NCBI GenBank assembly: GCA_028876655.1
Contig: JAGWRA010000004.1
Coordinates: forward strand, 1-32,492
Source of the DNA: Acidobacteriota bacterium
GTDB lineage: Bacteria > Acidobacteriota > Vicinamibacteria > Vicinamibacterales > CAVVIG01
Length of the DNA: 32,492 nucleotides
Reading direction: 5' to 3'
The translations under genes were made by a program, and so were the position numbers. Shown here piece by piece: positions 9,360-27,136 of this stretch; the stretch's first letter is position 1; each line of letters starts with the position of its first letter. A model generated the notes under the pieces. That model made no database searches. It was not told the DNA's origin and saw only the letters and a list, made by a program, of their open reading frames with translations.

Positions 9360-10936
9360 TCGGGCAGGGGTGGCAGGGTCCGCTTGTAGAGCACGACGCC
9401 CGCCCCGTGGCAGACCGGCGTGAAGCCGTCGAGGAAGTGCGGGTCCTGGCGCGAGAGACGCGCCAGCGGCCCGCCGCCTTCCGCTTTCTCCTCGATCAGA
9501 ATCCAGTTCACGAACGGCCGGGGGTCGTGGAGGGCGGCGAGCCAGATGTCGCCGTTCCCCTCGTGCAGGAAGTCGCGGATCGGGAAGCCGGCGCGGCCGA
9601 GGTCCTGCATGTAGTGGCCGAGGGCCCCCATGCTGATCATGATCTTGCCGCCGTGATAGCCGGCACGCAGGCAGTCGGTGACGTGCTGACGCGGCGCGAA
9701 GTTCGGGCGGTCCCATTGCGCCTCGAGCACCATCGGCGCGCGGGGGTCGAACGGATGGATCTCGAGCACCATCACCAGCAGGGCGGCCACGGCGGCCACG
9801 CGGCGCCGCCGGCCGGCGGCGCCGACGAGCACGCCGATCGCCACCGCCTCGAAGGCGACGAAGGGGACCATGTAGCGGATGCGGAACGGGTGGCCCTTGA
9901 AGAAGGCGTAGCAGGGCAGGGCGGTGGAGGCCGCGAGCGCCACGAGCAGCCAGTCGCGTGCCCGCATCCGTGACACCAGCCCCCGCCCGAGCAGCAGCAG
10001 CCCGCCGGCCGATGCGGTAATGAGCAGCCACAGGCCGCTGATCTGGCGCTCGCCCCAGACCAATTCCGCCAGCGCGACGAGCGGTTTCCCGCGTGCCTTG
10101 TTCTGGGCGACGAAGAACCCGCTGGTCACGAGCCAGTGCCCGACCGTGGCCCGGCTCAGCACGAAGAATCCGAGGATGGCAGCCGTGGGCCAGACGGCCA
10201 CCGCCGCCACGCGCCTGATGGCGACGGGGAGGCGGTCCCCGCCGCGCCAGCGGGCCCAGGCCGCGGCTGTCAGCACGGCCGCGGTGATCAGCCAGGCCTC
10301 GTAGCGTGTCAGGCAGGCGGCCGCGAGCGCCGCGCCGGCCCCGCGGCCGGGTGCGGGGCGAGGGTCGTCGACCCAGTCGTAGAGGAGTGCGACGCCCAGC
10401 AGCGCGAAGCCGAAGAGCAGCGGTTCTTCCATCGGCGTCGACTGCAGGTAGAGCACGTTCGGATTGAGCGCGAAGACGGCCACGCCGAGCCAGGCGGCCA
10501 GCGGCGAGCCGGTGACCCGGACGATGAGGCGGGCCATCGCCCAGGTGGCCAGCGTGAAGGCGAGCACCGAGAAGGCGACGGCCGAGGCGCCGGTACGGTA
10601 CAGCCAGTCGATCTGCACCGGCAGCATGTTGAGGAGGTGGGGCAGGGGCAGCCAGACGGCGCCGATCTGCTGCCAGCCCGGCGTGATGCTGTCGATGATC
10701 CGCCGCGCCACGACGAGGTGGCCGCGCGCATCGTAGTGGCTCAGCGTCAGCCCCTGGAGGTGATAGAACCAGGCGGCACCCAGGCCGAGCAGGCCGGCGG
10801 CGAGCGCAATCAGGCGCGGCGCGCCGACCGCCGATCTCCAGGACGACCACGGGCGATTGCCGATGGGGCGGGCGGGAAGGTCAGGTATAATTTCGCGGGC
10901 CAAGGACCCGATGATACTGCAACTCCGCTGACCCAT
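9356..10936 (-). CDS. GT-C fold polytopic glycosyltransferase (PMT/ArnT-like)
   Basis: A protein of 526 residues with about eleven membrane segments. The first periplasmic loop contains SHYDARGHLVVARRI, with the Asp in the position of the catalytic acid of GT-C (PMT/ArnT/AglB-like) enzymes, followed by a loop with TPGWQQIGAVWLPLPHLLN. GT-C enzymes use polyprenyl-phosphate sugars as donors at the outer face of the inner membrane. The C-terminal region (about 400-526) is a soluble periplasmic domain. The start is uncertain. ATG 10936 collides with the divergent DedA gene's ATG (shared CATG), and a TTG at 10903 may be the true start. Acceptor and sugar are unknown; the neighbouring glycan genes suggest a surface polysaccharide or glycoprotein. 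Confidence 0.85.
   Translation of the reverse strand: MGQRSCSIIGSLAREIIPDLPARPIGNRPWSSWRSAVGAPRLIALAAGLLGLGAAWFYHLQGLTLSHYDARGHLVVARRIIDSITPGWQQIGAVWLPLPHLLNMLPVQIDWLYRTGASAVAFSVLAFTLATWAMARLIVRVTGSPLAAWLGVAVFALNPNVLYLQSTPMEEPLLFGFALLGVALLYDWVDDPRPAPGRGAGAALAAACLTRYEAWLITAAVLTAAAWARWRGGDRLPVAIRRVAAVAVWPTAAILGFFVLSRATVGHWLVTSGFFVAQNKARGKPLVALAELVWGERQISGLWLLITASAGGLLLLGRGLVSRMRARDWLLVALAASTALPCYAFFKGHPFRIRYMVPFVAFEAVAIGVLVGAAGRRRRVAAVAALLVMVLEIHPFDPRAPMVLEAQWDRPNFAPRQHVTDCLRAGYHGGKIMISMGALGHYMQDLGRAGFPIRDFLHEGNGDIWLAALHDPRPFVNWILIEEKAEGGGPLARLSRQDPHFLDGFTPVCHGAGVVLYKRTLPPLPD
10886..10891 (+). promoter_or_regulatory. Candidate -10 box for the DedA-type gene
   Basis: A perfect TATAAT on the + strand, 43 bases before ATG 10935, in a GC-rich context. 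No good -35 is found at 16-18 bases; TTGCCG at 10857-10862 is too far (23 bases). It lies inside the beginning of the divergent GT-C gene if that gene starts at 10936. Confidence 0.35.
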
Positions 10937-11528
10937 GCCGCTCTTCGCATTCTCGATTCAGGGCGCCGCCGCCTCGCTCGGCGGCGTGGGCCTCTTCATC
11001 GTCACGTTCCTCGACTCGTCCTTCCTGTCGCTGCCCGAGGCGGCCGATCTGCTGCTCATCTGGATGGTCGTCCAGCACAAGCCGCGGATGCTGTACTACT
11101 CGTCGATGGCGACGCTCGGGTCGATCGCCGGCTGCTTCGTGCTCTACTACGTGACGCGCAAAGCCGGCGACGCCTTCGTCCGGCGGCGCTTCAAGGCGGA
11201 GCGGATCGAGCGGGGGTTCCAGCTGTTCCAGCGGTACGGCGTCCTCGTCCTGCTGATCCCGTCCCTGCTGCCGCCCCCGTCGCCGTTCAAGATCTTCGTG
11301 CTGCTCGCCGGCGTGGTCGCCATCTCCCCGGTGAAGTTCGTCTCGGCGATCGCCCTCGGGCGAGGCGCGCGCTACTTCGGCGAGGGCCTGCTCGCGCTCT
11401 GGTACGGCGAACAGGCGATGGCCTTCCTCCGGACGCACGGGCTCACGATGTTCCTGGTCGCCACGGTGCTGATCCTGGCGCTGACGTTCGGCCGGCGGCT
11501 GTGGAGACGGCCGCGCGAGGCGATGTGA
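10935..11528 (+). CDS. DedA/VTT-domain membrane protein (YqaA-like)
   Basis: A 197-residue membrane protein of the SNARE-associated/VTT superfamily. The hallmark re-entrant-loop segments are present: the first around FLDSSFLSLPEAADLLL (25-41), and the second around LLIPSLLPPPSPFKIFVLLAGVV (about 105-127), with R/P/K residues typical of DedA proteins. Three to four further TM helices follow. DedA-family proteins transport lipids such as undecaprenyl phosphate or phosphatidylethanolamine across the inner membrane; UndP recycling would fit a glycan locus, but this is inference. The YqaA subfamily is the nearest by length. It starts at ATG 10935 on the opposite strand to the GT-C gene. Confidence 0.88.
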   Translation: MPLFAFSIQGAAASLGGVGLFIVTFLDSSFLSLPEAADLLLIWMVVQHKPRMLYYSSMATLGSIAGCFVLYYVTRKAGDAFVRRRFKAERIERGFQLFQRYGVLVLLIPSLLPPPSPFKIFVLLAGVVAISPVKFVSAIALGRGARYFGEGLLALWYGEQAMAFLRTHGLTMFLVATVLILALTFGRRLWRRPREAM

Positions 11529-11614
11529 CGGACGCCGGTGGCGCGGACGGCCGGGTCGCCCCGCCACGGGCGGCTGGCGTATACTGAGCGCGGGCGCCGG
11601 CCCGCTTCCATCCG

Positions 11615-12607
11615 ATGCAGCCAGACCTGTCCGTCGTCATCCCGATCCGCAACGAGTCGCCCTCGCTGCCGCAGCTGCACCAGGAGCTGCGCGAGGCGCT
11701 GGACGCGTGGGGCCGATCCTACGAGATCATCCTCATCGACGATGGCAGCACCGACGACAGCTATGCCGTGATGGCGGGCCTGCAGGCGGCGGATCCCCAC
11801 CTGCGGGTCATCCGCTTCCGCCGGAACTTCGGCCAGACGGCGGCGTTCGCGGCGGGCTTCGCCTACGCGCGCGGCCGCTTCATCGTCACCTCCGACGGGG
11901 ATCTCCAGAACGACCCGCACGACATCCCGGCGATGGTGGCCGAACTGGAGGCCGGCGGCTACGACATCGTCTGCGGCTGGCGGAAGAGCCGGAAGGACAC
12001 GTTCCTGACACGCCGCGTGCCGTCGATGCTGGCCAACTGGCTGATCTCGCGGGCCACCGGCGTCCGGCTGCACGACTACGGCTGTTCGCTGAAGGTCTTC
12101 CGCGCCGAGGTGGTGAAGTCGCTGAAGCTGTACGGCGAGATGCACCGCTTCCTGCCGGCCATCGCCAGCGAGATGGGGGTCCGGATTACCGAGGTGGTCG
12201 TGAACCACCGGGCGCGGCAGTACGGGAAGTCGAAGTACGGGTTGTCACGGACGGTCCGCGTCATCCTGGACCTGCTGACGGTGAAGTTCCTCCTCAGCTA
12301 CTCGACCCGCCCGCTGCAGATCTTCGGGCTGATCGGGCTGGCGATGGGGGCGCTCGGCACGGGCATCACCGGCTGGCTGGCCTACGTCCGGCTGTTCGGC
12401 GGACAGGCGATTGCCGGCCGCCCGCTGCTGCTGTTCGGCATCCTGCTGATCTTCACCGGCCTGCAACTGGTCACTCTTGGCCTGCTGGCGGAACTGCAGG
12501 CACGCACCTACCACGAATCCCAGGACAAGCCCATCTATACGATCCGTGAAGTGCTCGAGTCGGAGGCGCCGGTGGCGGTCCGTCAGGCCGTCAGCACCCG
12601 GGGCTAG
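11615..12607 (+). CDS. GT2 polyprenyl-phosphate glycosyltransferase (DPM1/GtrB-like)
   Basis: A 330-residue enzyme with an N-terminal GT-A domain and two C-terminal TM helices (about 235-260 and 270-292). Motifs are VVIPIRNE (7-14), IDDGSTDD (41-48), the metal-binding TSDGDLQNDP (92-101) and HRARQYGKSKYG (198-209). This layout matches GtrB/ArnC/DPM1-type enzymes that transfer a sugar from a nucleotide donor to undecaprenyl phosphate on the cytoplasmic face. The product would feed GT-C enzymes such as the three in this locus, and the DedA-type gene just upstream could move or recycle the lipid carrier. A TATACT sequence (11580-11585) precedes the gene but has no good -35. Sugar specificity cannot be read. 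Confidence 0.93.
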   Translation: MQPDLSVVIPIRNESPSLPQLHQELREALDAWGRSYEIILIDDGSTDDSYAVMAGLQAADPHLRVIRFRRNFGQTAAFAAGFAYARGRFIVTSDGDLQNDPHDIPAMVAELEAGGYDIVCGWRKSRKDTFLTRRVPSMLANWLISRATGVRLHDYGCSLKVFRAEVVKSLKLYGEMHRFLPAIASEMGVRITEVVVNHRARQYGKSKYGLSRTVRVILDLLTVKFLLSYSTRPLQIFGLIGLAMGALGTGITGWLAYVRLFGGQAIAGRPLLLFGILLIFTGLQLVTLGLLAELQARTYHESQDKPIYTIREVLESEAPVAVRQAVSTRG

Positions 12608-12813: not shown

Positions 12814-13980
12814 ATGAAGAAGACCGTCTTTCGCTTCAGTGGAGTGCTGTGTCTGGCCGCCGGCATCGCGGCGTGTTCGTCGAGCCCCTCGAAGCCGTCG
12901 ATCACGCTGACGTCGCCGAAGCTCGTGACGCCGGCTCAGGGCGCGCAGATCGCGAACGCGGCGCAGCCCATTACGCTGACGATTCAGAACGCGACGTCGA
13001 CCGGGTCGACCGCGTTGACCTACACCTTCGAGGTGGCGACCGACGAACAGTTCACCAACGTCGTCTACACCAAGTCCAGCGTGGCGCCCGGCACCGACGG
13101 GACGACCTCGCAGCAGATCGACACCCTGCCGGCCGGCAAGGGGTACTACTGGCGCGCGAGGGCCGACAGCGGCTCGACCACCGGGCCGGTGACCTCGGCG
13201 TTGAACTTCGCGATTGGGCCGGCGGTTACGGTGGGTGCGCCGGCGCTGTCGTCTCCGGGCGTCGGGGCCACGGTCTCGAGCGCCCGTCCGACGCTGACGG
13301 TCACCAATTCGACCACGACCGGGCCTGTCGGCAGTATCACCTACAAGTTCGAGGTCTCGACGACCGACAGCTTCGACAGTCTGGTGGCGAGCGGGACGGT
13401 CGCGCAGAGTTCCGGTCAGACGTCGTACACGCTGACGCAGGACCTGCAGGACAACACCACCTACTACTGGCGGGTAACGGCGACCGACACGACGAACAAC
13501 ATCTCGAGCACCTATTCGGGCGTCGGCAACTTCAAGACCTCGCTGGGGTTCGACCTGAACCAGGTCGTCTATGTCCTCGGACCGAACATCAGTTCGTGGC
13601 CGCAGACCTCGACGATCACGAACGCCTACGCGGACGGCAGCCAGCTCTGCATCTACCACACGAAGCTGGGGGTCTGGCCGACGACGCCGTATCCGTACGA
13701 TCCGAGTGCGACGATCGAAGGGAACCAGTGGGTCTTCGCCAAGATCAACGGCACCTGGTACGGCGGTGCGAGCGATTGGTACCGGCCCGGGCAGGCCTGC
13801 AAGGGCGTGACGGCGCAAAGCATCGGCGGCGACGCCTTCTATGCGTGGGAGCCGCTGAAGTCGTGGGTGCCGCACTCGGGCGAGGTGTTCGGGGTGGCCG
13901 ATACGACGCCGGCCAGGGCGTGGCCCAGCACGAAGACGCTCGACGAGCGGACGGACGTCAAGCTGCTGACGTGGCCCTAG
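12814..13980 (+). CDS. Lipoprotein 1: two FN3/Ig-like repeats plus unrecognised C-terminal domain
   Basis: A 388-residue predicted lipoprotein. The signal peptide ends in a lipobox AGIAAC with lipidated C21. Two beta repeats follow (about 32-135 and 140-245), each containing a YYWR motif (YYWRARA at 111-117, YYWRVTA at 217-223), as in fibronectin-III/Ig-like domains of acidobacterial surface proteins. The C-terminal part (246-388) starts FDLNQVVYVLG, includes WVFAKINGTWYGGASDWYRPGQACK and ends in a short Pro/Trp tail. It aligns with the second lipoprotein's C-terminus and I cannot assign it to a family. A strong promoter and structured leader precede it, and a GC-rich hairpin follows. It probably sits on the cell surface, perhaps binding glycan; that is inference. 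Confidence 0.9.
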   Translation: MKKTVFRFSGVLCLAAGIAACSSSPSKPSITLTSPKLVTPAQGAQIANAAQPITLTIQNATSTGSTALTYTFEVATDEQFTNVVYTKSSVAPGTDGTTSQQIDTLPAGKGYYWRARADSGSTTGPVTSALNFAIGPAVTVGAPALSSPGVGATVSSARPTLTVTNSTTTGPVGSITYKFEVSTTDSFDSLVASGTVAQSSGQTSYTLTQDLQDNTTYYWRVTATDTTNNISSTYSGVGNFKTSLGFDLNQVVYVLGPNISSWPQTSTITNAYADGSQLCIYHTKLGVWPTTPYPYDPSATIEGNQWVFAKINGTWYGGASDWYRPGQACKGVTAQSIGGDAFYAWEPLKSWVPHSGEVFGVADTTPARAWPSTKTLDERTDVKLLTWP

Positions 13981-14021
13981 CGCGCAGCCGTCGAGGCTGA
14001 GAACGTCGAACGAGGAATAGA

Positions 14022-14056
14022 GAGCGCCCCGGAGGCCCGCCGCTTCCGGGGCGCTC
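14022..14056 (+). terminator. Hairpin terminator between lipoprotein 1 and convergent GT-C gene
   Basis: A perfect 12-bp GC-rich stem, GAGCGCCCCGGA (14022-14033) with TCCGGGGCGCTC (14045-14056), and an 11-base loop. No T-tract follows on either strand, so it may act bidirectionally or as an mRNA end-protecting hairpin. Confidence 0.65.
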
Positions 14057-14099
14057 GTGTGTACGACGCCGTTCGACGTCCGTGGTTACGGGAATCCCG

Positions 14100-16811
14100 T
14101 TAATGGAGTTCGATCCAGCACCCGAGCCTGCGATGGTCGGTGCTGCGCGGATCGACAAGATAGGGCTGGAATCCGGCGGAGGTCGAGATGGCGATGTCGG
14201 TCCCAAGCGTCCCGGGGAGACGCGGGATTTCGATCGACCGCTGCTCACCGGGAGTGAGGTGGAGATCGAGGCTCCAGGCGCCGCTCTGCAACCGGACGTC
14301 GTTGGGGACGGGCGCATTGCGGATCAGGAGCTGCGCCGGGGCATCGTTGTCCGGCGCGAGCACGAACTCCGCGGAACCGCCCCCCGCCACCCAGGCGCCT
14401 CCTGCTTCGACATAGGCCTGTCCGCCCATGAGGAAAAGCAGCCCGGGGCCGGATCGGACGGAGCGGCGGGGAACCTGCGTGGCCAGCGGGTCGCTGGGCG
14501 GCCGCTTGCTGAGCGGCTGCAGCCAGACGTGCGACAGGCTCTGCCGGGCAGCCGCGTCGGCGTCGATGATGAGGCCGCGCGGCGTCACCGGCAGGCGGAC
14601 TTCACGCCGCAGGTCCGCCCCTGCGCCGAGCGACGCGAGGTCGACCGTCAGGATCGGCGGCAACTGGCTGTCGATGGCGAAGGCCACGGTCCCCGTGCCG
14701 GGTCGCCAGACGCCGACATCGAGCCGGTAGACACCCGCGGGCGGTGAATACATCGCGACCAGCGGCTGATCTCCAGCAGGAACGTCGGGAAGCACCGGTC
14801 CGAGGCGCAGTTGCGCGGGCAGGGCCTCTACCGGGATGCGGTGCAGGGGCCGGTACTCGAGCGCGATGTCGTGCGTCCCCGGCTCGTAGGCGCGCAGCAG
14901 CGCGATCTGGCCGGCGGCCGGAGTCATCGTCCGATCGTGGTTCATTGGCCAGACGATCGTGACGCCCAGCATGCCGGCCACCGCGGCCGCCACCGGGAGC
15001 GCCGTGGCCACACCGACGCGGCCAGCGCGCCGCTCGGCGAGGGTGAGCGCGACACCCGTCAGCAGGATCGCCCCGAGCCAGACGGCAGCCTGCAGCAGGA
15101 CATCATGGAGGACCGGCGGATCGGTCACGAACAGGCTGGGCAGGGCACGCGGCAGGTTGACGAGCGGGCTCATCCAGAGGAGCCAGTGCGCGAAGCTGTC
15201 GCGGAAGTTGTAGACGAGACTGCCGCCGTCGACGAGCGCGAAGGCCGCCGTCAGTCCCAGGCTGAACCAGAGCGCGAGCAGCCCCAGCGCGCGCGTCGTC
15301 AGGTGGCGGGCGCGGGCGAACAGGAGCGCCGCAGGGACGGCCATCGGCAGCAGGACGGGGACGAGGAATCGGACGGGCGCGCTCGTGCCGCCCCACCACA
15401 TCTGATAGGCGGCGACGACCAGGCTGTAGGGGATCTGGACGACGAGCAGCTCCAGCGTCAGCCGGCGCGAGCGGCGCCAGAGCACCCAGAGGCCAGCGGC
15501 GGCGAAGAGATAGATCGGCGCGTTCGGGAGCAGGCCGAACTGCTGGTCGAACAACAACCCGGGGATGCCCCGGGCCATGTTCGCGATCGACGACTGCGTC
15601 GCGCCGGCGTAGGGCGCGGTCGGACTGGGCGTGCCGTAGATGACGTAGAAGAACGAGAACCAGGCGATCGCGCTGATGACCGGAATCGCCAGGAAGGCCG
15701 CGGCGCGGCGGAGCGCCCCCGGTCGCCGGGCGATTTCGAGCAGCAGGCACAGCGCCAGGCAGCCCGCGATGATGGCGAAGCGCGAGTGCAGCCACGGCAG
15801 GGCGGCCAGCAGCAACCCGCGCAGCGCCCAGCGCCACGTGTCGGGCCATCCGTCGAGCGACCAGGCGCGGCCGAGGCCGACGGCGGCCGCTGGATCCGCC
15901 ACCGACTCGATGAGCGGTAACACCCCGACCAGCACGATGAGCGCACCGGGGCCGTCGGGGAAGATCGTGAAGGTGAGGAAGAAGTACGGGATGGAGAGCG
16001 CGACGGCCGCCCATCCGAACCAGGCGGCCACCGCGTCGCCGGTCAGGGCGTAAGCGGCGCGCCAGATGGCAATGGATCCCAGAGCGGCCAGCAGAACGAG
16101 AAAGATCTTCACGCCCGGATAACCGAAGAGCGCAAAGGCCGGAAGCACCAGGACGGGCAGCCCTGGCGCGTGAATTGAATAGATGTGTCCGTTCAGCCCG
16201 CGATGCAGGTAGTCCGGCTTGAGCACGGTGGGCCAGTACGCGCGGTAGTCACCGCGGCGATGAACGTTGTCGATCTGCAGGGTGTGGTCGATGAGCAGGC
16301 TCTGCGTGATGACGAGATAGTGCGGCTCGTCACCACTTGGTAATTGGCGCGCGATCGTGTGTGAGGCGACGCCCGACAGGATGCCGGCCAGCAGCGCGGC
16401 CACGAGTGAGGCGCGCGCCGGCGTTGTCAGCCAGGCGCGCCACGCGGGCCGGGGGGCGGCAGGCGCCGGCGGGCGGGCCAGCCAGAGGCCGAGCGCGACG
16501 GCCCCCCACACCCAGAATCGTGCCGGACCGGCCCAGACGAAGAAGACCGCCGGGATCCGCCACGGCCACCAGGGGAGCAGGACGATCACGGACGCCAGCA
16601 GCGGGAGCGTGCGGGAGACGGCGTTCCGGCGCCAGCAGACGGCAGCCGCGACGATCGCCAGGGTGAACAGTGCGGCGAGGAGCGCCAGGGAGGGAAGCAG
16701 GCCCAGGCGGGCCGCATCCGGACCGGCCTGGGTGACGGCCATGGTGCCGCCCGAGACCCAGAGGCTGAAAGCCGCAGCGAGGCAGGCGGCCAGGACCAGG
16801 ACGAGGCGCAT
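14100..16811 (-). CDS. Large GT-C type membrane protein with C-terminal beta domains
   Basis: A 903-residue protein. The N-terminal two thirds (1 to about 620) have about 13-15 membrane helices. The first catalytic-type loop is LPSGDEPHYLVITQSLL (about 155-171), a GDE/DE acid pair typical of GT-C enzymes in the PMT/ArnT group. The C-terminal third (about 640-903) is soluble and beta-rich, ending GFQPYLVDPRSTDHRRLG. That final motif recurs at the end of the GT-C protein encoded at 23101-24996. Its likely role is transfer of a sugar from a polyprenyl-phosphate donor onto a periplasmic glycan or protein. A TAGGAT box lies nine bases before the ATG. It sits divergently to lipoprotein 2 and convergently to lipoprotein 1. 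Wzy-like polymerase activity cannot be excluded. Confidence 0.85.
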   Translation of the reverse strand: MRLVLVLAACLAAAFSLWVSGGTMAVTQAGPDAARLGLLPSLALLAALFTLAIVAAAVCWRRNAVSRTLPLLASVIVLLPWWPWRIPAVFFVWAGPARFWVWGAVALGLWLARPPAPAAPRPAWRAWLTTPARASLVAALLAGILSGVASHTIARQLPSGDEPHYLVITQSLLIDHTLQIDNVHRRGDYRAYWPTVLKPDYLHRGLNGHIYSIHAPGLPVLVLPAFALFGYPGVKIFLVLLAALGSIAIWRAAYALTGDAVAAWFGWAAVALSIPYFFLTFTIFPDGPGALIVLVGVLPLIESVADPAAAVGLGRAWSLDGWPDTWRWALRGLLLAALPWLHSRFAIIAGCLALCLLLEIARRPGALRRAAAFLAIPVISAIAWFSFFYVIYGTPSPTAPYAGATQSSIANMARGIPGLLFDQQFGLLPNAPIYLFAAAGLWVLWRRSRRLTLELLVVQIPYSLVVAAYQMWWGGTSAPVRFLVPVLLPMAVPAALLFARARHLTTRALGLLALWFSLGLTAAFALVDGGSLVYNFRDSFAHWLLWMSPLVNLPRALPSLFVTDPPVLHDVLLQAAVWLGAILLTGVALTLAERRAGRVGVATALPVAAAVAGMLGVTIVWPMNHDRTMTPAAGQIALLRAYEPGTHDIALEYRPLHRIPVEALPAQLRLGPVLPDVPAGDQPLVAMYSPPAGVYRLDVGVWRPGTGTVAFAIDSQLPPILTVDLASLGAGADLRREVRLPVTPRGLIIDADAAARQSLSHVWLQPLSKRPPSDPLATQVPRRSVRSGPGLLFLMGGQAYVEAGGAWVAGGGSAEFVLAPDNDAPAQLLIRNAPVPNDVRLQSGAWSLDLHLTPGEQRSIEIPRLPGTLGTDIAISTSAGFQPYLVDPRSTDHRRLGCWIELH

Positions 16812-16882
16812 CAGGCGCCTATCCTACATCACGGCCGGGCCTAAACTTCGCGCGATTTCGGACCGATACGCGGTATTGCACA

Positions 16883-16930
16883 GGCCTTCCGGTCCCTGCC
16901 GCCGCAGAGGGGCGGGCGGGCCGGAGCGCC
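16883..16930 (+). promoter_or_regulatory. Long leader hairpin before lipoprotein 2
   Basis: An interrupted stem of about 17 pairs: GGC/GCC outside, TTCCGG/CCGGAG in the middle and CCC..CCGCC/GGCGG..GGG inside, with a seven-base loop near 16904-16910. It lies 28 bases before ATG 16959. The Shine-Dalgarno tract GGGAGA (about 16950-16955) is outside the stem. No T-tract follows. The divergent gap (16812-16958) holds no clear sigma-70 promoter for this gene. Confidence 0.45.
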
Positions 16931-16958
16931 GCCCGAAGATGCAAGACGAGGGAGAACG

Positions 16959-18278
16959 ATGACCAGGTATTTCCGGCTGCTCGTGCCGGTGGCTGTCGTG
17001 GCCACGGTGGCGGCGTGTACGACCGCCAAGAGTGCGAACCCGCTGAGCCCGTCCGTGGCGGGCCCGATTCCCGGCGTGTCCATCACGGCCCCGAAGGTCG
17101 TGTCGCCCTCTTCGGGCGCCGAGATCGCCGTCTCGGATCAGCCGATCACCCTGAAGGTGCAGAACGCGACGACCAATGGCGTCCGGCCGCTGTACTACAG
17201 CTTCGACGTGGCGAGCGACTCGGCCTTCAGTCACGTGGTCTTTTCGACCGGCAACGTGAAGCCGGGGACCGGCGGGGATACGTCGGTGACGCTGTCGGAC
17301 ACCCTGGGAGCCGAGCAGACCTATTACTGGCGGGCACAGGCGCTCGACGGGGCCAACACCGGGCCCTACATGGCGAGCACGAGCTTCACGGTCTACACGC
17401 CGGTCGTCATCAACGCACCCACGCCTGTTTCGCCCACTGGCGGCACGACGGTCACCTCGACGACACCGGCGCTGGTCGTCACCAACGCCACGCACACCGG
17501 ACCGGCCGGGGCGCTGACCTACACCTTCCAGATTGCGCAGGATCAGGCGTTCAGCACGGGGCTGGTGTCCGGGACGGTGGCGGAAGGGACGAGCCAGACG
17601 CAGTTCACCCCGGCGTCGGCCCTGGCCTACTCGACGACCTTCTACTGGCGCGCGCGGGCCGCCGACCCGTCGCATACGGGCGGCTGGTCGCAGACGGAGA
17701 GCTTCGTGACGCCCGCCGCGCCCACGACCGGCGGCGGGGGCGGGGGCACTGGCGGGGGCGGCAGCGGCGGAGGGAGCAGCGTGCCCGGCGGCTTCGATCT
17801 GAACAGCGTCCAGATCGTCGGCGGCAGCCCCGATATCCGGAGCTGGCAGGTCACGGCGCAGATCACGTCGCTCTCGTTCTCGAACGGGTCGATCAATATC
17901 AACTACACGAAGAACTGCCAGTGGCCGTCGGCCGACATCGGCGGCGGAACGCTGCAGGAGGCGACGATCTGGATCTTCGAGAAGATCGGCGGGCAGTGGT
18001 ACGGCACGGGCGGTGAGCGCCTGCGGCCGTGCCAGACCAGCAAGGATCTGACGAACCCGTCGGACATCGCCACCGGCTGGTTCTACTCGGGACAGTGGGC
18101 GCCGATGACCGGGTACGTGCCGGCCCCGGGCGAGGTGGTCGGCTTCATGGTCACCGACGGGTCGACCCGGGCCGACAACAACGCGCCGGTGCACGAGCGG
18201 TCGGGTGTGGTCCTCGTCGGCTTCCCGGCCAACGGCGTCAGCACGAGCTATCCGCCGTTCCTCTGGCAGGAACCGTAA
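16959..18278 (+). CDS. Lipoprotein 2: paralogue of lipoprotein 1 with Gly-rich linker
   Basis: A 439-residue predicted lipoprotein (lipobox TVAAC, C20). The layout is as in lipoprotein 1: repeat 1 about 41-147 (QPITLKVQNAT, YYWRAQA), repeat 2 about 150-251 (ALTYTFQIAQD, FYWRARA), then a Gly/Ser linker (about 258-274) absent from the paralogue, and a C-terminal domain (279-439) starting FDLNSVQIVGG, with IWIFEKIGGQWYGTGGERLRPCQ and PAPGEVVGF. The QPITL(T/K)(I/V)QNAT strand and FDLNxV...WxFxKIxGxWYG blocks are shared with lipoprotein 1, so the two arose by duplication. A GAGGGAGA Shine-Dalgarno sequence precedes the ATG. Probably outer-membrane anchored; no catalytic residues are recognised. 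Confidence 0.9.
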   Translation: MTRYFRLLVPVAVVATVAACTTAKSANPLSPSVAGPIPGVSITAPKVVSPSSGAEIAVSDQPITLKVQNATTNGVRPLYYSFDVASDSAFSHVVFSTGNVKPGTGGDTSVTLSDTLGAEQTYYWRAQALDGANTGPYMASTSFTVYTPVVINAPTPVSPTGGTTVTSTTPALVVTNATHTGPAGALTYTFQIAQDQAFSTGLVSGTVAEGTSQTQFTPASALAYSTTFYWRARAADPSHTGGWSQTESFVTPAAPTTGGGGGGTGGGGSGGGSSVPGGFDLNSVQIVGGSPDIRSWQVTAQITSLSFSNGSININYTKNCQWPSADIGGGTLQEATIWIFEKIGGQWYGTGGERLRPCQTSKDLTNPSDIATGWFYSGQWAPMTGYVPAPGEVVGFMVTDGSTRADNNAPVHERSGVVLVGFPANGVSTSYPPFLWQEP

Positions 18279-18308: not shown

Positions 18309-18338
18309 CAACGGGCCGGCCCTGGTGCCGGCCCGTTG
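18309..18338 (+). terminator. Hairpin terminator between lipoprotein 2 and convergent flippase gene
   Basis: A perfect 12-bp stem, CAACGGGCCGGC (18309-18320) with GCCGGCCCGTTG (18327-18338), and a six-base loop. GCCGTTTCC follows on the + strand. It lies between two convergent genes and may serve both. Confidence 0.7.
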
Positions 18339-18373: not shown

Positions 18374-19636
18374 CTACGAGGGCGGCGCCTCTGTGGCCGG
18401 CGCCCCCAGCGTCAGCCCCCACAGCAGGATGGCCACGCTGACGGCCTCGCCGATGACCGTGGCCCACGCCGCCCCGTCGATCCCGAGCCTGGGGATCAGG
18501 TACAGGTTGAAGCCGACGTTGACCGCCAGGCCGACGATGCCCGTCTTCAGCAGGAGCCGCTCGCGGTTGGCTGAAATCGCGATGGCGTGCAGGATCCAGA
18601 TCGCGAAGACGAAGATGGCGCCGGCGGCGAGGATCCGCAGCGCGCTGGCCGCGGGAAGGTAGTCGGCCCCGAACAGCAGCCGCAGGAGCGGCGCGGCGAC
18701 GAACCAGGTGACACCGCCGATGACGACGGACAGCGCCACCGAGGCGGCCACCGCGCGCCAGGCGAGCGTCCGGTGGCCCCGCAGGTCCGTGATGAACAGG
18801 CGTGACAGCCGCGGCGTCAGCACGCCGGCCAGGAGCGCCGGAGCGTACGTGAGCCCCTCGTAGATGCGATAGGCCGCGCTGTACCAGCCGGTCTCGGCGT
18901 TGGTCCGCAGGATCCCGAGCAGTACCGTATCGATGTACGAGTACAGGTTCAGGATGATCATGAAGACGCCGAAGGGGATGGCCGTTCGCTGCAGTTCCGA
19001 CCAGATGGCGCGATCGAACGCCAGGCCGACCGAGCCCATCTTCGCGCGGACGAAGGCAGCCGTGAGCAGCAGGGCGATCACCCGCGAACCGAGGAAGGTG
19101 AGCGCCAGCCCTCGCAGGCCGGCGCCGGCCGCCAGCGCCGTGCAGCCCAGGGCCACCAACAGCAGCCGGTCGAGGCCGACGACGAGACTCTCCCAGCCGA
19201 AGCGCTCGAGCCCCTGGAACACCCCGCGGACCGTCAGCAGGTAGGACCGGAGGACGGACGACCCGCCGAGCAGGTAGCACGCCAGCCGCACGTCGGGCTC
19301 GGATCGCAGCAGCGTGGCGATCGTGGCGAGCACGACCAGCGCCAGCCCGGCCCAGATCAGCTTCAGCCCGAAGGCGTTCGCCAGCACGGAGCCGGCGCGG
19401 GTGCGGTCCCGCGCGACGGCCCGGACCGTCACCTGGTTCAGGCCGAAGTCCATCAACGTTTCGAAGATCGTGGCCAGGGCGAGCGCGTAGGCGAACTTGC
19501 CGTACTCCGCATCACCGAGCGTGCGGCCGGCGACGATGATCAGGATCAGCAGGAGCGCCGCGCTGCCGTTCGTGAGCCCGGAATAGAACAGGTTCCAGGC
19601 GAACGTCCGCCAGTCGCGGTCTGCGGCCGCCGTCAT
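18374..19636 (-). CDS. Wzx-type polysaccharide flippase (MATE/MOP superfamily)
   Basis: A 420-residue membrane protein with about 12 helices. The N-terminal WRTFAWNLFYSGLTNGSAALLLILIIVAGRTLGDAEYGKFAYALALA pattern (a GxxxYGxFxxA-type segment after TM1) is characteristic of Wzx/RfbX O-antigen flippases. It also has the internal hydrophobic repeat of MOP transporters. Wzx moves undecaprenyl-diphosphate-linked oligosaccharide repeat units to the periplasm. It is last of four genes coupled by ATGA overlaps (its ATG 19636 overlaps the GT4 stop). This argues that the locus makes a lipid-linked repeat unit, although no classical Wzy polymerase is seen. Confidence 0.92.
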   Translation of the reverse strand: MTAAADRDWRTFAWNLFYSGLTNGSAALLLILIIVAGRTLGDAEYGKFAYALALATIFETLMDFGLNQVTVRAVARDRTRAGSVLANAFGLKLIWAGLALVVLATIATLLRSEPDVRLACYLLGGSSVLRSYLLTVRGVFQGLERFGWESLVVGLDRLLLVALGCTALAAGAGLRGLALTFLGSRVIALLLTAAFVRAKMGSVGLAFDRAIWSELQRTAIPFGVFMIILNLYSYIDTVLLGILRTNAETGWYSAAYRIYEGLTYAPALLAGVLTPRLSRLFITDLRGHRTLAWRAVAASVALSVVIGGVTWFVAAPLLRLLFGADYLPAASALRILAAGAIFVFAIWILHAIAISANRERLLLKTGIVGLAVNVGFNLYLIPRLGIDGAAWATVIGEAVSVAILLWGLTLGAPATEAPPS

Positions 19637-20850
19637 CGTCCGCCTCCGGCGGCCAGCGCGACGAAGAGATCCGCCGTACGGCCGAAGACGACGGCTTCGT
19701 CGAACGAGCGCTCGACCGTGGCTCGCGCGGCCGCCGCCAGCCGGCCGCGCAGACCGGCGTCGTCGATCAGGCGGCGGAGCGGTGCCGCCAGCCCGGCGGG
19801 ATCCTCTGGCGGGGCGAACAGCGCGTTGTCCTCGTCCGAGAGGTAGTCGCGCATGCCGCCGACGCGCGAGGCCACCACGGCGAGCCCGGTGGCCATCGCT
19901 TCGATGACGGAGATCCCGAAGGCTTCGAAGTGAGACGGCTGGACGAAGATGTCGGCGGCGCGCAGCAGGCGGGCCGTGTCCTGGCGCGGTCCCGTGAAGA
20001 TAACGCGATCCTCCAGCTGGTGCGAGGCGACGAAGTCACGCGCGCGCGGTCCGGCGTCCCAGGCATGGCCGGGCATGTCCGGACCGACGACCACCAGGGT
20101 CGCCTCCGGTCGGTCGACGAGGTTCCACGCCTGCACCAGGTCGAGCACTCCCTTCTCCAGGCTCAGCCGTCCCAGGAAGAGACAGATGGGGCGGCCCGCC
20201 GGCCAGCCCTCCTCCGCCCGGATCCGGTCGCGCTCTCCGGGAAGAGGGGGCCGGAACTCCGCGACGTCGATCGAGTGCGGCATGTAGTGGACCCGCGCGG
20301 GCGGCACGCCACTCTCGAGCGCCTCGCGTTCGATCTCGCGCGAGATGCAGAGGAAGGCGGTCGCCGATCGGTAGGCGGCCGACAGGGGGCGCTTCAGCCA
20401 GCGCGCCAGCCGGCCAGCCGGTGCGATGCGGCAGCGGACGAGGGCGGGATTCCAGTTGGCGCACGACAGCACACCGGTTGTCCCCGCCTGCACGATCACC
20501 GGGCGGCCGAGGAGCCGGCCCGCGGCGAGAGCGGCCAGGCCGATACCGCGGTAGTCGATGCAGCAGATGAGGTCGTACCGCGCGCGGAGCCGCAGCAGCG
20601 CGAGAAAGGCGAAGGGGAGCATCCGCCACTTGCCACCCGGCGAGCGCTCGCCGGCCGGCGGCACCCGCACGACCGGGACGCCGTCGATCACCTCTTCGTG
20701 CGGTGCCCCCGGCCGGACCCGCTTGGTGACGACCAGCACGTCGAAGCCCTGCCGATGGAGGAAGGCGGCGAGACGCCGGGCGTTGGTTTCGACGCCCCCG
20801 AGCACGGGGTGGTAGTAAGTCGTCAGCAGCAGGATGCGCGGGCGGCTCAT
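19633..20850 (-). CDS. GT4 family (GT-B) glycosyltransferase
   Basis: A 405-residue cytoplasmic/peripheral enzyme. The N-terminal Rossmann part has TYYHPVLGGVETNARRLA (11-28), a glycine loop typical of GT4 acceptor domains. The C-terminal domain has FLGRLSLEKGVLDL (225-238) and the E-x7-E motif with E309 and E317 (HFEAFGISVIEAMATG), which binds the nucleotide-sugar donor. I chose ATG 20850, which overlaps the previous stop (ATGA); longer in-frame sequence upstream is antisense-like. It retains the anomeric configuration as in other GT4 enzymes. It probably adds a sugar to the growing repeat unit. Sugar and linkage cannot be determined. Confidence 0.93.
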   Translation of the reverse strand: MSRPRILLLTTYYHPVLGGVETNARRLAAFLHRQGFDVLVVTKRVRPGAPHEEVIDGVPVVRVPPAGERSPGGKWRMLPFAFLALLRLRARYDLICCIDYRGIGLAALAAGRLLGRPVIVQAGTTGVLSCANWNPALVRCRIAPAGRLARWLKRPLSAAYRSATAFLCISREIEREALESGVPPARVHYMPHSIDVAEFRPPLPGERDRIRAEEGWPAGRPICLFLGRLSLEKGVLDLVQAWNLVDRPEATLVVVGPDMPGHAWDAGPRARDFVASHQLEDRVIFTGPRQDTARLLRAADIFVQPSHFEAFGISVIEAMATGLAVVASRVGGMRDYLSDEDNALFAPPEDPAGLAAPLRRLIDDAGLRGRLAAAARATVERSFDEAVVFGRTADLFVALAAGGGR

Positions 20851-21914
20851 CGCGGCAGGACCGTGTGGGTCAGCAGCCACCAGTAGGCCGCGAGCGCGCG
20901 CTCGTAGCTCTGCTTGCCCCAGCGGATGAGGACGTTGCCGGCCAGGTCGTCGCGGATCACGAGCGGATCGGCGCACAGCAGTTCCGCGTCCTGGCGCACG
21001 CGAATGCGCCGGGTGAGGGCCCGGTCGGCCGGCAGCGCCGGGAGCATGGCGATCAGGCCGCCAACGGCGCGGAAGTACGTCTTCCCATGACCCTTCACGA
21101 CGAGCATGGCGAACTGCAGGGGCTCGTGAACGAGCAGCGCGGGCAGGATGGCGAGGAGCGTCCGCACCTGGTAGTTCTTCAGCATGAAGTGCCACCGGTT
21201 GCGGATCTGATAGTAGAAGAGCCACGTGCCGCGCGGACGGCTGTAGTGCAGCAGGACCGAGTCTGGCACCTCCAGGATCTCGTATCCCGCGAGCTTGATC
21301 CGGTGCGAGAAGTCGCCGTCCTCCTTGCCGATGAAGTACCGCTCGTCGAACAGGCCGACCTCGATGGCCGCCTGGCGGTCGAGCAGCAGGCCGCAGGTCG
21401 GCGCGGCGCCGATATCGGCGAGCTGATGCGGGTGGTCGGCGAGCGGCCGATCCAGCCAGGGGTTCACCGCCTCGCAGATGTAGTGGAGACTGCCTCCGGC
21501 GTACTGAATGACGTCGGGACGGCTCTGGTGCACCACGATCGGACTGCCGACCTTCGCGCGCGGATGGGCCCGCATGGCCTCCCGCAGCCGCTGGACGGTA
21601 TCGGGCCGGAGCACGACGTCCGCGTCCATCAGGAACACGTACGGCAGCGGGGCCTCGCGGATGCCGACATTGCGGCCCGGGCTGGGTCCATCGTTCCGAT
21701 CGAGACGGTGCTGCCGGATCTCGGGCCACTCCCGCGCCAGCCAGTCCCCGGTGCCGTCGGTGCTGGCGACGTCGACGACCATGATCCGGGCCGCCGGGCA
21801 GCCGGCCGCCTGCAGCGAGTCGAGCGCCGTCACCAGCCGCTCGCGGGAGTTGTGCGCGACGATGGCCACCGCCACGTCGTCCGGGAAGGGGAGCTGGGCG
21901 GCGGAGGTCATCAT
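20847..21914 (-). CDS. GT2 family (GT-A) glycosyltransferase, rhamnosyltransferase-like
   Basis: A 355-residue enzyme. Motifs are AIVAHNSRERL (17-27), VDVASTDGT (47-55), the DxD-type LMDADVVL (95-102) and IGKEDGDFSHRI (195-206), which carries the ED pair of the catalytic region. A hydrophobic stretch near 255-300 (LLAILPALLVHEPLQFAML) suggests membrane association. This pattern is common in WcaA/RfbF-like and rhamnosyltransferase-type GT2 enzymes of polysaccharide loci. ATG 21914 overlaps the deacetylase stop by ATGA, and its own stop overlaps the GT4 start by ATGA. Donor specificity is unknown. Confidence 0.92.
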   Translation of the reverse strand: MMTSAAQLPFPDDVAVAIVAHNSRERLVTALDSLQAAGCPAARIMVVDVASTDGTGDWLAREWPEIRQHRLDRNDGPSPGRNVGIREAPLPYVFLMDADVVLRPDTVQRLREAMRAHPRAKVGSPIVVHQSRPDVIQYAGGSLHYICEAVNPWLDRPLADHPHQLADIGAAPTCGLLLDRQAAIEVGLFDERYFIGKEDGDFSHRIKLAGYEILEVPDSVLLHYSRPRGTWLFYYQIRNRWHFMLKNYQVRTLLAILPALLVHEPLQFAMLVVKGHGKTYFRAVGGLIAMLPALPADRALTRRIRVRQDAELLCADPLVIRDDLAGNVLIRWGKQSYERALAAYWWLLTHTVLPR

Positions 21915-23050
21915 CGGGTGCGGGCAGGAATGGACCACGAGCGGCCGCGGCGCGGGAGCCGGTAGAGATGTTTGTTGGGGAGGCGCTTCAGCCGGTACAC
22001 CGGATCGCCGGCCCGCACCGCCAGCGCTCCCCGGATCCGGTTCGAGAAGGCCGTCTGGTAACCCGTCGCGCGGAGCGCGCGGAGCGTCACCTCGCCCCCC
22101 ACCCCCCAGGGCAGGCAGATGTGGCGGACGTGTCGCGTGCCGAGGCGCGCGTTCAGGATTTCGCGGCTGCGTCCGAGCTGGTCGATGATGGCGCGCTGCT
22201 GCTCGTCGGCCGTCTCGTACGAGGCTTGCAGCGCCGGCCGGACGAGGGCGGCCAGTTCTCGGCGCCAGCCCGGACGTTCGAAGAACGCCGGGCCTCCGTT
22301 GGCGGCGACATGGGCCATCGGGCGCTGTCGCGCCTCGTCGGGGACGAGGAAGCGGAGGCCGTCGGACATGCGCGACCGCTGCAGGAAGAGCGGGGCGCCG
22401 AGTTCCTCCGGCGCCTGATAGCGCCAGCGGGGGGCTGCCTCGACGAGAGGCCGGCTCAGCCGGTAGCCCGCGGCGTACGCGGGCGTGACGAAGTCCATCA
22501 GGCGGTCGGCGGTGAAGATCATCGCGTGGGAGAGCGTGTGCGACTGTACGTCGACGACGCCGCTGTCGTGCAGCGCCTTCAGCTCGGGCCAGGTCGCAAA
22601 CGGCGTGTCGGACCGGTCGAGCGCGCCCGGCGTCTCGAGGCCATCGTCGATGGTCGGCCGCAGTCCGTCCGCCTCCGTCACCCGTTCGGGGATGGCGTAG
22701 GTGATGGCGCGGAAGCCATACCTCCGCAGCAGCGGGCCGGCGACCGTCCAGAGGCTGGCCCAGGCGTCGTCGAAGCCGAGCGCAACGTGGAACGGACCGG
22801 GATGGACGCCGTCGACGACCAGCCGGGCGATCGCCTCCGAGTCGACGGTCGTGTAGCCGTTCTCTGCGAGGAACTGCAGCTTCGGCTCGAGCTCGGCCGG
22901 CGTCACCTCGTGAAAATGGAACACGGGCAGGAACCCGGCCGGCGACGCCCCGAACAGGAACGCCGGATACCGCCCGGACAGCAGATCGATCAGCCCACGC
23001 ACCGGGCCGCCCCGCTCGTTGAACGGCACCCGCGTCGTGCGTCCGCTCAT
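21911..23050 (-). CDS. Polysaccharide deacetylase (NodB/CE4-like)
   Basis: A 379-residue protein. The N-terminal LPVFHFHEVTP (41-51) matches the conserved first strand of the NodB homology fold. The metal/catalytic motif is LGFDDAW (91-97; D94, D95), a variant of TFDDG, and VQSHTLSH (168-175) gives the HxxxH zinc pair (H171, H175). A later RHICLPWG segment matches the RxPxG/Pro-rich motif in degenerate form. No signal peptide is evident, so it may act on cytoplasmic glycolipid intermediates. I chose ATG 23050. It starts a four-gene chain (deacetylase, GT2, GT4, flippase) with ATGA overlaps. N-deacetylation of a HexNAc in the repeat unit is the likely role; the degenerate motif makes this moderately sure. 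Confidence 0.88.
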   Translation of the reverse strand: MSGRTTRVPFNERGGPVRGLIDLLSGRYPAFLFGASPAGFLPVFHFHEVTPAELEPKLQFLAENGYTTVDSEAIARLVVDGVHPGPFHVALGFDDAWASLWTVAGPLLRRYGFRAITYAIPERVTEADGLRPTIDDGLETPGALDRSDTPFATWPELKALHDSGVVDVQSHTLSHAMIFTADRLMDFVTPAYAAGYRLSRPLVEAAPRWRYQAPEELGAPLFLQRSRMSDGLRFLVPDEARQRPMAHVAANGGPAFFERPGWRRELAALVRPALQASYETADEQQRAIIDQLGRSREILNARLGTRHVRHICLPWGVGGEVTLRALRATGYQTAFSNRIRGALAVRAGDPVYRLKRLPNKHLYRLPRRGRSWSIPARTR

Positions 23051-23088
23051 CGGGATGCCCCTGCACACACCAGCATGAGACTGTATCG

Positions 23089-23094
23089 TATTAT
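23089..23094 (+). promoter_or_regulatory. Candidate -10 box, leaderless start of second C-terminal-beta GT-C gene
   Basis: TATTAT six bases before ATG 23101, so the predicted transcription start coincides with the start codon. No Shine-Dalgarno sequence is visible and no good -35 at 17-18 bases. The 50-base gap to the divergent deacetylase start must hold both promoters. Confidence 0.4.
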
Positions 23095-23100
23095 GTGCGA

Positions 23101-24996
23101 ATGCCGCCGGAGCGCGCACCTGTCGAAATCCTCGATCCGCCGCCCCCCGGCCGCCGTCCCGCCGGACGTCCCGGTGTCCTCGTCGCCCTCATCCTGCTGG
23201 TCCTGACCTGCGCCGCGGCCCTGTCGATCAACGTCGTCCAGACCACCTACAGTCCGAAGGGTGACGAGGCGACCTACGTCGCGATGGCCCTCAGTCTGGC
23301 GCGCGATCACGATTTCTCGTACGACCGCCGGGACCTCGAACGTTTCTACCGGATCTATCGCATCGGCCCGGAAGGGATCTTCCTGAAGCGGGGCAGCCAG
23401 ATGCGGCTGCACGTGGATGGGAGCTGGCCGTTCGTCCATCTGGTCACGGAGCCCGATCCGCTCAACCGGATCTACTTCGGCAAGGCGTTCATCTACCCGC
23501 TGATCGTCGCCCCGTTCGTCTGGGTGTTCGGCCTGAACGGGATGCTGCTGTTCCACATCCTGCTGCTCGCCGCGGTCTGCGCGGCCGGCTACGCGTTCGC
23601 GGCCGCCCAGGCGCCACGGGCGGTGGCGCTGGTGTTCGCGCTGGGGTTCGTCGGCGCGTCGATTGCGCCGATCTACGCGGTGTGGCTCACGCCCGAGATC
23701 TTCAACTTCGCGGCGGTCTTCCTGGCGTACTTCTTCTGGTTCTACAAGGACGTGGCCCCGCCGCGCGCGGCCACCTGGTGGGACCGCCTGCTGTACGGCC
23801 GCGGCAGTGACATCGTGGCCGCGGTCCTGCTCGGCCTGGCGACCTACTCGAAGCCGACCAACGCCCTGCTCGCCGGGCCGGCCGTCCTCTGGCTGTGGAC
23901 GCGGCGGCGCTTCTGGTGGGGCCTGGTCGTCGGCGTGGTGTTCGTGGCGGTTACGAGCGGGTGCTTCGGCGTGAACGCCCTGGTCACCGGCGAGTTCAAT
24001 TACATGGGCGGCGACCGGAAGACCTTCTACGGGACCTTCCCGGACGAGAAGCCGACGGTGACGTTCGACAACTCGGGCATCTCGATGGTGACCAACGATG
24101 CCGACACCGAGAACGTCATCGACACGCCCCACTTCTGGCCCCAGCTGGCCGACAACGCCGGCTACTTCCTGTTCGGCCGCGACGCCGGCTTCGTGCCGTA
24201 CTACTTCCCGGGCGCGGTCGTCGTGCTGCTGTGGCTGGCCGGGATCCGGAAGCGGCCGTGGTGGCAGGCCTATACGCTGCTCGCCGTCGTGGCGTCGGTC
24301 GTCATCCTGCTGATCTTCCTGCCGTACACGTGGGGCGGGGGCGGCGGGCCGCCGGGGAACCGGTACTTCCTGAGCCTCTACCCGGCGCTGTTCTTCCTGA
24401 TGCCGCCGATCACGTCCGTGGCGGCGCCGCTGGTGGCCTGGCTCGGCGGCGCCGCGTTCGTGGCGCCGATGCTGCTGAACCCGTTCGTTGCGTCGAAGGA
24501 CGTCTGGCAGATGACGGAGCACGGGCTCGTGCGCGAGCTGCCCGTCGAACTGACCATGGTCAGCGACCTGCCCATCAACCTGGATCGGACCCGGTCGCAC
24601 CTCTTCTACAGCCAGGATCCGACGATCCTCTTGTACCTGCTGGACCAGAACGCCTGGCCGCCCGAAGTGGGCGGCATCTGGGTGGCGGGGAAGTCGCGCA
24701 GCGACATCATCTTCCGCACGGACCGGCCGGTGGACCACGTGGTCGTCGGTCTCAGGGCGCCGATCGCCGACACCGTGAAGGTGTCAGTCGACGGAGAGTC
24801 CGCACAGGCGGTGATGCGGGCGGGCGTGCCGGCCTCGCTGACCTTCACGCCGGACGGCGTGTACGCCCATCACAGCTACAGCTATCTGCTGCGCGTCTCC
24901 ACGGCCAACGGCTTCGTCCCCGCAATGAGCGATCCCACCTCGACCGACACGCGCTATCTGGGTGTCTTCGTCACGTTGACCGTCACGCTGAAGTAG
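23101..24996 (+). CDS. GT-C type membrane protein with C-terminal beta domain
   Basis: A 631-residue protein from ATG 23101 (an in-frame GTG at 23095 is less likely). After a Pro-rich N-terminus there are about 10-12 membrane helices. The first loop has SPKGDEATYVAMALSLARDHDF (about 51-72), with the GDE acid pair of GT-C enzymes, matching SGDEPHYL in the 903-residue protein encoded at 14100-16811. The glycine-rich loop YTWGGGGGPPGNRY (about 411-424) may line the active site. The C-terminal 120 residues form a soluble beta domain ending GFVPAMSDPTSTDTRYLG, nearly the same motif as in the 903-residue protein. Likely a periplasm-facing transferase using a polyprenyl-linked donor; acceptor unknown. 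Confidence 0.87.
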   Translation: MPPERAPVEILDPPPPGRRPAGRPGVLVALILLVLTCAAALSINVVQTTYSPKGDEATYVAMALSLARDHDFSYDRRDLERFYRIYRIGPEGIFLKRGSQMRLHVDGSWPFVHLVTEPDPLNRIYFGKAFIYPLIVAPFVWVFGLNGMLLFHILLLAAVCAAGYAFAAAQAPRAVALVFALGFVGASIAPIYAVWLTPEIFNFAAVFLAYFFWFYKDVAPPRAATWWDRLLYGRGSDIVAAVLLGLATYSKPTNALLAGPAVLWLWTRRRFWWGLVVGVVFVAVTSGCFGVNALVTGEFNYMGGDRKTFYGTFPDEKPTVTFDNSGISMVTNDADTENVIDTPHFWPQLADNAGYFLFGRDAGFVPYYFPGAVVVLLWLAGIRKRPWWQAYTLLAVVASVVILLIFLPYTWGGGGGPPGNRYFLSLYPALFFLMPPITSVAAPLVAWLGGAAFVAPMLLNPFVASKDVWQMTEHGLVRELPVELTMVSDLPINLDRTRSHLFYSQDPTILLYLLDQNAWPPEVGGIWVAGKSRSDIIFRTDRPVDHVVVGLRAPIADTVKVSVDGESAQAVMRAGVPASLTFTPDGVYAHHSYSYLLRVSTANGFVPAMSDPTSTDTRYLGVFVTLTVTLK

Positions 24997-26261: not shown

Positions 26262-26840
26262 CTAGGAGGTCTCCCCGTTGGGACCGGGATGCGCGCTGTT
26301 GTAGGCGAACCAGGACCAGTTCCACGGCTGGTTGTAGTTCGACCAGTCGGAATTCCGGTCGTCGGGCCGCGCGCCGATGTAGCCGTCGGCGGTCCCCGTC
26401 AGCATCAGGTTGTTCGACGAGTCGAGCTGGTACTGCCCGGGGTGCATGGCGTTCAGTTCCTGATACGCCTTCTGCATCGAGGTCGGATCCGCCGGGTTGT
26501 ACTTCTTCAGCACGTTATAGGCGTCGTACTTCAGCGAGCCCGCCGCCGACTGCGCCCGCGACGCGTCGAAGCCGTAGAACGTGTAGCCGCCATCGGTCGA
26601 CGTCGCCGCCGCGAGCGCGGCCGTCGCGGCCGCCGTCGACTTGGGCGGGGTCGTCGACGTGGTGCTCGTGGCCGACGACACCGAGTTGCTCGACAGGCTG
26701 TCGATGAGCTTGTTCAGGAACTGGCCGAACTCGTCGACCGAGAGCTGCCCGTCCCCGTTGAGATCGAACTGCTGCAGGACGTTCTGCGCGAGCAGCTGCA
26801 CGCTGCTGTTGCTGCCGACCTGCGAGGCCACCGTGGACAT
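26262..26840 (-). CDS. EF-hand protein with Trp/Tyr-rich C-terminal region
   Basis: A 192-residue protein; AAGGAGG lies six bases before ATG 26840, one of the strongest Shine-Dalgarno sequences in the window. Residues 26-38 (DLNGDGQLSVDEF) are a canonical single EF-hand calcium loop with Asp/Asn/Asp at positions 1/3/5 and Glu at 12. Then comes a Ser/Thr/Ala-rich linker (about 52-85) and a C-terminal region (about 93-192) rich in Tyr, Asn, Asp and Trp (NYNQPWNWSWFAYN near the end). No signal peptide or TM is visible, so cell location is unclear. I do not recognise a family for the C-terminal part. A good sigma-54-type promoter lies upstream and a hairpin downstream, so it is probably monocistronic. 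Calcium binding is inferred from the loop only. Confidence 0.85.
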   Translation of the reverse strand: MSTVASQVGSNSSVQLLAQNVLQQFDLNGDGQLSVDEFGQFLNKLIDSLSSNSVSSATSTTSTTPPKSTAAATAALAAATSTDGGYTFYGFDASRAQSAAGSLKYDAYNVLKKYNPADPTSMQKAYQELNAMHPGQYQLDSSNNLMLTGTADGYIGARPDDRNSDWSNYNQPWNWSWFAYNSAHPGPNGETS

Positions 26841-26972
26841 CAATCCTCCTTGCAACCGTCGCGGGATCCCGTCCCGCCGCGTGCGGGCCGTTTCTCCGCC
26901 CGGTCCGCACGTCTGTCGCCCACACGAGAGTCTCCGGGATCGCCCGTGGCGACCGCCGGCACCATCCCATTT

Positions 26973-26988
26973 CGCAAAGCCCGTGCCC
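26973..26988 (-). promoter_or_regulatory. Sigma-54-type (-24/-12) promoter of the EF-hand gene
   Basis: On the - strand: GGGCAC (26988-26983), five bases (GGGCT), TTGC (26977-26974), G. The consensus is TGGCAC-N5-TTGCW, so the GG and GC doublets are correctly 12 bases apart and only the first and last consensus bases differ. The start would be near 26962, giving a leader of about 122 bases. If real, expression needs RpoN and an AAA+ activator. A chance match in GC-rich DNA is possible. Confidence 0.5.
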
Positions 26989-27136
26989 GGCCGCTGAACC
27001 GGGATGGGCACACCGCTTTCACGGAAATGGCGCGATTGCGCCGGTCGGAGCGCCGACAGAGGGTCCGTCCGGGTGGACAACTCGCGCCGAACTCGCGGGG
27101 CGACGCCGCAAGTCCCTCGAAAACCTGTCAGTTACG

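Follow-up and report, generated by a model that had tools for sequence, protein, structure and literature searches.

A C-terminal domain common to paired lipoproteins of an Acidobacteriota polysaccharide cluster and to phages

Two paralogous lipoproteins encoded within a polysaccharide cluster of an Acidobacteriota bacterium end in a domain of ~146 amino acids that defines an unnamed family with no entry in Pfam, NCBIfam, or PHROGs. This C-terminal domain (CTD) occurs across the Acidobacteriota, a phylum of common but poorly studied soil bacteria, and the same module is carried by phages. The sequences further show that CTDs have been exchanged between the two positional types of lipoprotein while the N-terminal repeats stayed in place, and the CTD is probably a recognition module that would bind a component of the cell envelope.

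A lipoprotein pair within a variable polysaccharide cluster

The window, the whole 32.5-kb contig that was analysed (32,492 nucleotides), contains the genes for LP1 (12814–13980, + strand; 388 amino acids) and LP2 (16959–18278, + strand; 439 amino acids) on either side of P0003 (14100–16811, − strand), which encodes a 903-amino acid GT-C-type membrane protein with 12 hydrophobic segments, and all three open reading frames are intact. The description of LP1 and LP2 in the earlier note as a paralogous lipoprotein pair is borne out by a signal peptide and lipobox in both (LAAGIAAC in LP1 and VATVAAC in LP2, ending in the Cys-terminated IAAC and VAAC) and by 37% identity over 396 columns (E = 9e-68), extending from the first repeat into the CTD. 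Both carry two repeats, as the earlier note had it, though the YYWR motif it assigned to them reads FYWR in one of the four, and both possess the C-terminal motif FDLNxV...WxFxKIxGxWYG...RP. The CTD occupies 13549–13977 (+ strand) in LP1 and, following a Gly-rich linker, 17793–18227 (+ strand) in LP2, with profile matches of E = 6.4e-55 and E = 3.2e-53, respectively. When searched against its own genome (4.19 Mb in 281 contigs), the CTD query retrieved the CTD of its partner (E = 3.5e-16) and no second match, placing the likeness of the two far beyond chance.

The repeats of LP1 exceed the Pfam cut-offs for PhoD_N (48.2 bits, cut-off 30; E = 1.6e-12) and Ig_Rha78A_N (29.7 bits, cut-off 27.4), and those of LP2 score just under the cut-offs for the same families. 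A model of full-length LP1 (AlphaFold, pLDDT 86) matched mostly tandem FnIII chains in the PDB, and the repeats of both proteins are accordingly predicted to be FnIII/Ig-like. Matches of LP2 to antibody sequences in the PDB were set aside as an artefact of its Gly-rich linker, which resembles scFv linkers, and a match to a TnpA model was judged to be due to chance.

The cluster surrounding the pair keeps the order rsbW-suhB-OMP-GTC526-DedA-GT2-[LP1]-...-[LP2]-flippase-GT4-GT2-deacetylase-GTC633-UPF0104-GT4-methyltransferase, as determined by comparing the genes of the window with the loci that hold a CTD. On the LP1 side, the conserved flank consists of genes for a DedA-family protein and a GT2 (10935–12607, + strand; the GT2 by Pfam Glycos_transf_2, DedA by sequence reading), and on the LP2 side of genes for a flippase, GT4, GT2, and polysaccharide deacetylase (18374–23119, − strand; Polysacc_synt, Glycos_transf_1, Glycos_transf_2, and Polysacc_deac_1), with order conserved in both. 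Pfam backs the assignments of both GT2s, the flippase, both GT4s, the deacetylase, the UPF0104 gene (LPG_synthase_TM), and a hexapeptide transferase, while the remaining names were assigned by reading the sequences; GTC526 and GTC633 had no Pfam match. A small open reading frame inside the cluster (26262–26999), also present in a locus from the same genus (L074), contains an EF-hand-like stretch, FDLNGDGQLSVDEF. Within the gap between LP1 and the convergent P0003 lies a GC-rich hairpin (14022–14056; 15 bp stem, −34.6 kcal/mol, z = −4.9), and a second occupies the gap between LP2 and the flippase gene, likewise convergent (18309–18338; 12 bp core stem, z = −3.8). The GC-rich hairpins reported to close each lipoprotein gene are thus both real and strong, and are ordinary 3′-end hairpins given their place between convergent genes and the lack of a T run 3′ of either. 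No Rfam families or tRNAs were found in the window.

P0003 does lie on the opposite strand between the two lipoproteins, though the proposal that the three genes form a conserved module centred on the GT-C gene was not supported by the neighbourhood survey. The nearest relative, from the same genus (L074, and L003, a contig of genome G024), has the lipoprotein pair without P0003, with a GT2 gene in its place. P0003-like genes occur within 4.5 kb of 11 of the 33 CTD copies located in the cluster (5 genomes), and in several genomes devoid of the CTD (L117–L122) they adjoin the GT2 gene. These distributions indicate that the pair and the GT-C gene belong to the same variable cluster but do not constitute a separate unit. 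The linkage of the pair is with the polysaccharide cluster as a whole, and what stands of the proposed surface module is the pair itself, which is conserved in the glycan locus as a surface-type element and is not defined by the GT-C gene. P0003 weakly resembles the putative glycosyltransferases LA_3751/LA_3752 (NCBIfam NF047440) over residues 198–506 only (E = 1e-8; 34.6 bits, below the cut-off of 200), and differs from them in bearing a long C-terminal extramembrane part.

The CTD family in Acidobacteriota and phages

Using the LP2 CTD as the starting query against 162 genomes of the order, with surroundings fetched and the profile iterated to convergence, 73 copies were recovered from 25 genomes (1–5 per genome). 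The CTD was present in 25 of 193 genomes of the class and in 12 of 396 genomes of a phylum sample, four of the 12 belonging outside the class. A lipobox-type start was identified by pattern scan in 43 of the 73 members, and many that lack one have truncated or extended open frames. The CTD is positioned at the free C-terminal end (tail ≤30 amino acids) in 66 of the 73. The conserved positions (profile numbering) are W18, T21, WP44–45, GxW68–70, P111, GE114–115, G118, ER136–137, and the last P, with the aromatics W18, W44, and W70 near-invariant.

The earlier note had failed to recognise the domain, and neither did the databases: none of 69 members, each scanned singly, matched a Pfam or NCBIfam family above noise, and PHROGs gave only a weak match, for LP2. 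Matches of the CTD profile to HLA class II and ricin B (E = 0.005–0.9) were judged to be due to chance, no defence family matched the CTD, and a literature search found no published work on the domain. Structure prediction for the CTD of LP2 with eight sequences returned a confident beta-sandwich (AlphaFold, pLDDT 85.3, pTM 0.84), for which the best PDB fold matches were FnIII-containing chains. The likeness to FnIII/Ig-like domains is weak (E never <0.001, TM about 0.4) and is not accompanied by a sequence match; the CTD, at about 145 amino acids, is also larger than the usual FnIII domain of roughly 100. There was no Pfam match to carbohydrate-binding modules, and the fold search returned a single CBM9 structure (TM 0.29) and no carbohydrate-binding family with a good score.

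More than half of the family lies outside the glycan cluster, which holds 33 of the 73 copies (from 18 of the 25 genomes); the other 40, some amid housekeeping genes, indicate that the CTD is used more widely than the glycan locus. LP2-type CTD lipoproteins recur amid open reading frames resembling peptide deformylase, NUDIX, and ABC-ATPase genes (L076, L078, L080, L081, L083, L086, and L088). At four loci (L046:8767–10743, L055:8338–10409, L062:2381–4422, and L072:8353–10320) a CTD lipoprotein is followed immediately by an open reading frame with the appearance of an outer-membrane beta-barrel, and at L089:8491–10390 a CTD protein with no obvious stalk lies directly 3′ of a lytic transglycosylase (SLT_2) gene. 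A prophage origin for the bacterial copies with a short N-terminus was rejected, as the neighbours in L089 and L077 are ordinary chromosomal genes.

A scan of IMG/VR with the CTD subfamilies identified the domain on four phage contigs, all confirmed by the bacterial profile (E = 3e-23 to 3e-41), while there was no match among 50,697 named phage records or among named plasmid records. At L111:4878–6065, a tail protein is encoded upstream and the CTD gene follows a holin-like membrane open reading frame (identified by eye) and a weak match to Hydrolase_2/endolysin; its product combines a signal peptide and a Pro-rich linker with a hydrophobic segment at the C-terminus. At L115:4998–5576 the CTD is joined to a coiled coil, and the gene is preceded by a P22-type coat protein and then holin-like and hydrolase-like open reading frames (by eye), such that L111 and L115 share the order holin-like, hydrolase-like, CTD protein. 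The CTD at L112:761–1492, with a Pro-rich linker and coiled coil, lies beside an integrase, and that at L114:1057–1554, on a contig of 35% G+C, is two genes away from a head-tail adaptor.

Exchange of C-terminal domains between lipoproteins

A tree of the N-terminal repeats separates LP1-type from LP2-type positional clades with 99.8% support, which is not an independent test, since the first repeat tree was itself the source of the group names; the split nonetheless points to an ancient pairing of LP1 and LP2 whose positions have been maintained. This split is rejected by the CTDs of those proteins (lnL difference of 108, AU p = 1e-4), which reject more strongly a grouping of three proteins that are close by their repeats (L054, L087:6121, and L037; lnL difference of 205, for a group picked after seeing the trees). 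Individual pairs are discordant in both directions. Between L054 and L087:6121, identity is 64% for the repeats and 21% for the CTD; between the neighbouring genes L087:11354 and L087:12783, in one genome, it is 16% for the repeats and 74% for the CTD. These comparisons show that CTDs have been exchanged between the positional clades, and chimeric assembly is unlikely to account for all of the cases because in many genomes the exchanged domain sits inside a single open frame. In genomes without the CTD, three lipoproteins of the cluster possess another C-terminal domain (L118:3755–4891, L120:5708–7039, and L121:9798–10967). This domain had no Pfam match in L118 and L121 and no match in a PDB sequence search of L121; its resemblance, by eye, to a lectin-like jelly roll is only a lead.

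Possible functions of the pair

That the CTD is probably a recognition module follows from its swapping between proteins, its occurrence across the Acidobacteriota, and its carriage by phages. LP1 and LP2 may plausibly bind, anchor, or carry the product of the transferase, as the earlier note had suggested. The explanation tentatively favoured here is that each protein would consist of a lipid anchor and a stalk of two FnIII-like domains, exposed at the cell surface, with the CTD beta-sandwich as an exchangeable ligand-binding tip. The likeliest ligand would be an envelope glycan of the cell itself, one that the genes of the conserved cluster produce or export, and the pair may hold or organise this polymer at the surface, as envelope lectins do elsewhere. 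A stalk with a tip of changeable specificity is expected to give the pattern seen here, in which repeats keep to their two positional clades and CTDs move between them. The positional pair is kept in the glycan cluster, between the GT2 and flippase genes, in several families, and the tip model is further favoured by the free C-terminal placement of the CTD, its near-invariant tryptophans, the alternative domains of L118, L120, and L121, and the phage copies; the glycan ligand itself is suggested by the cluster, the conserved aromatics, the phage copies, and the alternative tips. Against an envelope glycan as the ligand are the 40 copies outside of the cluster and the lack of a well-scoring carbohydrate-binding family in the fold search. 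A common role could be proposed with Wzi, described as an outer-membrane lectin for the assembly of group 1 capsule in E. coli (PMC3791409), as envelope proteins of glycan loci that hold polymer. No homology is claimed, Wzi being an 18-stranded beta-barrel (PMC3791409) and LP1 and LP2 lipoproteins with beta-sandwich domains.

The exchange of CTDs between stalks, the several copies per genome, and the occurrence on four phage contigs near structural, integrase, or lysis-type genes would also suit a tip that recognises ligands outside of the cell (other cells or soil polymers) or that is a target of phage–host conflict, with phages binding or masking the same ligand or excluding rivals. Such a role seems somewhat unlikely given that the pair is stably linked to glycan genes of the cell itself and that neither named phage records nor defence families gave a match. 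A broader scenario, in which phages captured a module common to bacterial surface lipoproteins to bind, mask, or compete for an envelope ligand and bacteria keep swapping tips, as in a surface-glycan arms race, is considered unlikely. The constant position of the pair between the GT2 and flippase genes in several families could instead mean that LP1 and LP2 assist the assembly or export of the glycan, in the periplasm or the outer membrane, as structural components of the machinery and not as proteins that bind the completed polymer, but the wide exchange of CTDs and the copies elsewhere are ill-suited to a dedicated machine part, making this rather unlikely. Lastly, P0003 adjoins both lipoproteins in the window and their repeats are Ser/Thr-rich, as could be the case if LP1 and LP2 were substrates glycosylated by the GT-C gene product; with the GT-C gene absent between the same-genus pair and from the vicinity of 22 of the 33 in-cluster copies, and present in genomes lacking the CTD, this is very unlikely.

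Together, these findings link an unnamed domain to a conserved polysaccharide locus and reveal its modular exchange, as a putative tip, between stalks that stay stable, along with its presence in phages. If the tip binds the glycan made by the locus, it would provide a means of studying how surface polymers are held by the Acidobacteriota and what the phages of these bacteria recognise.
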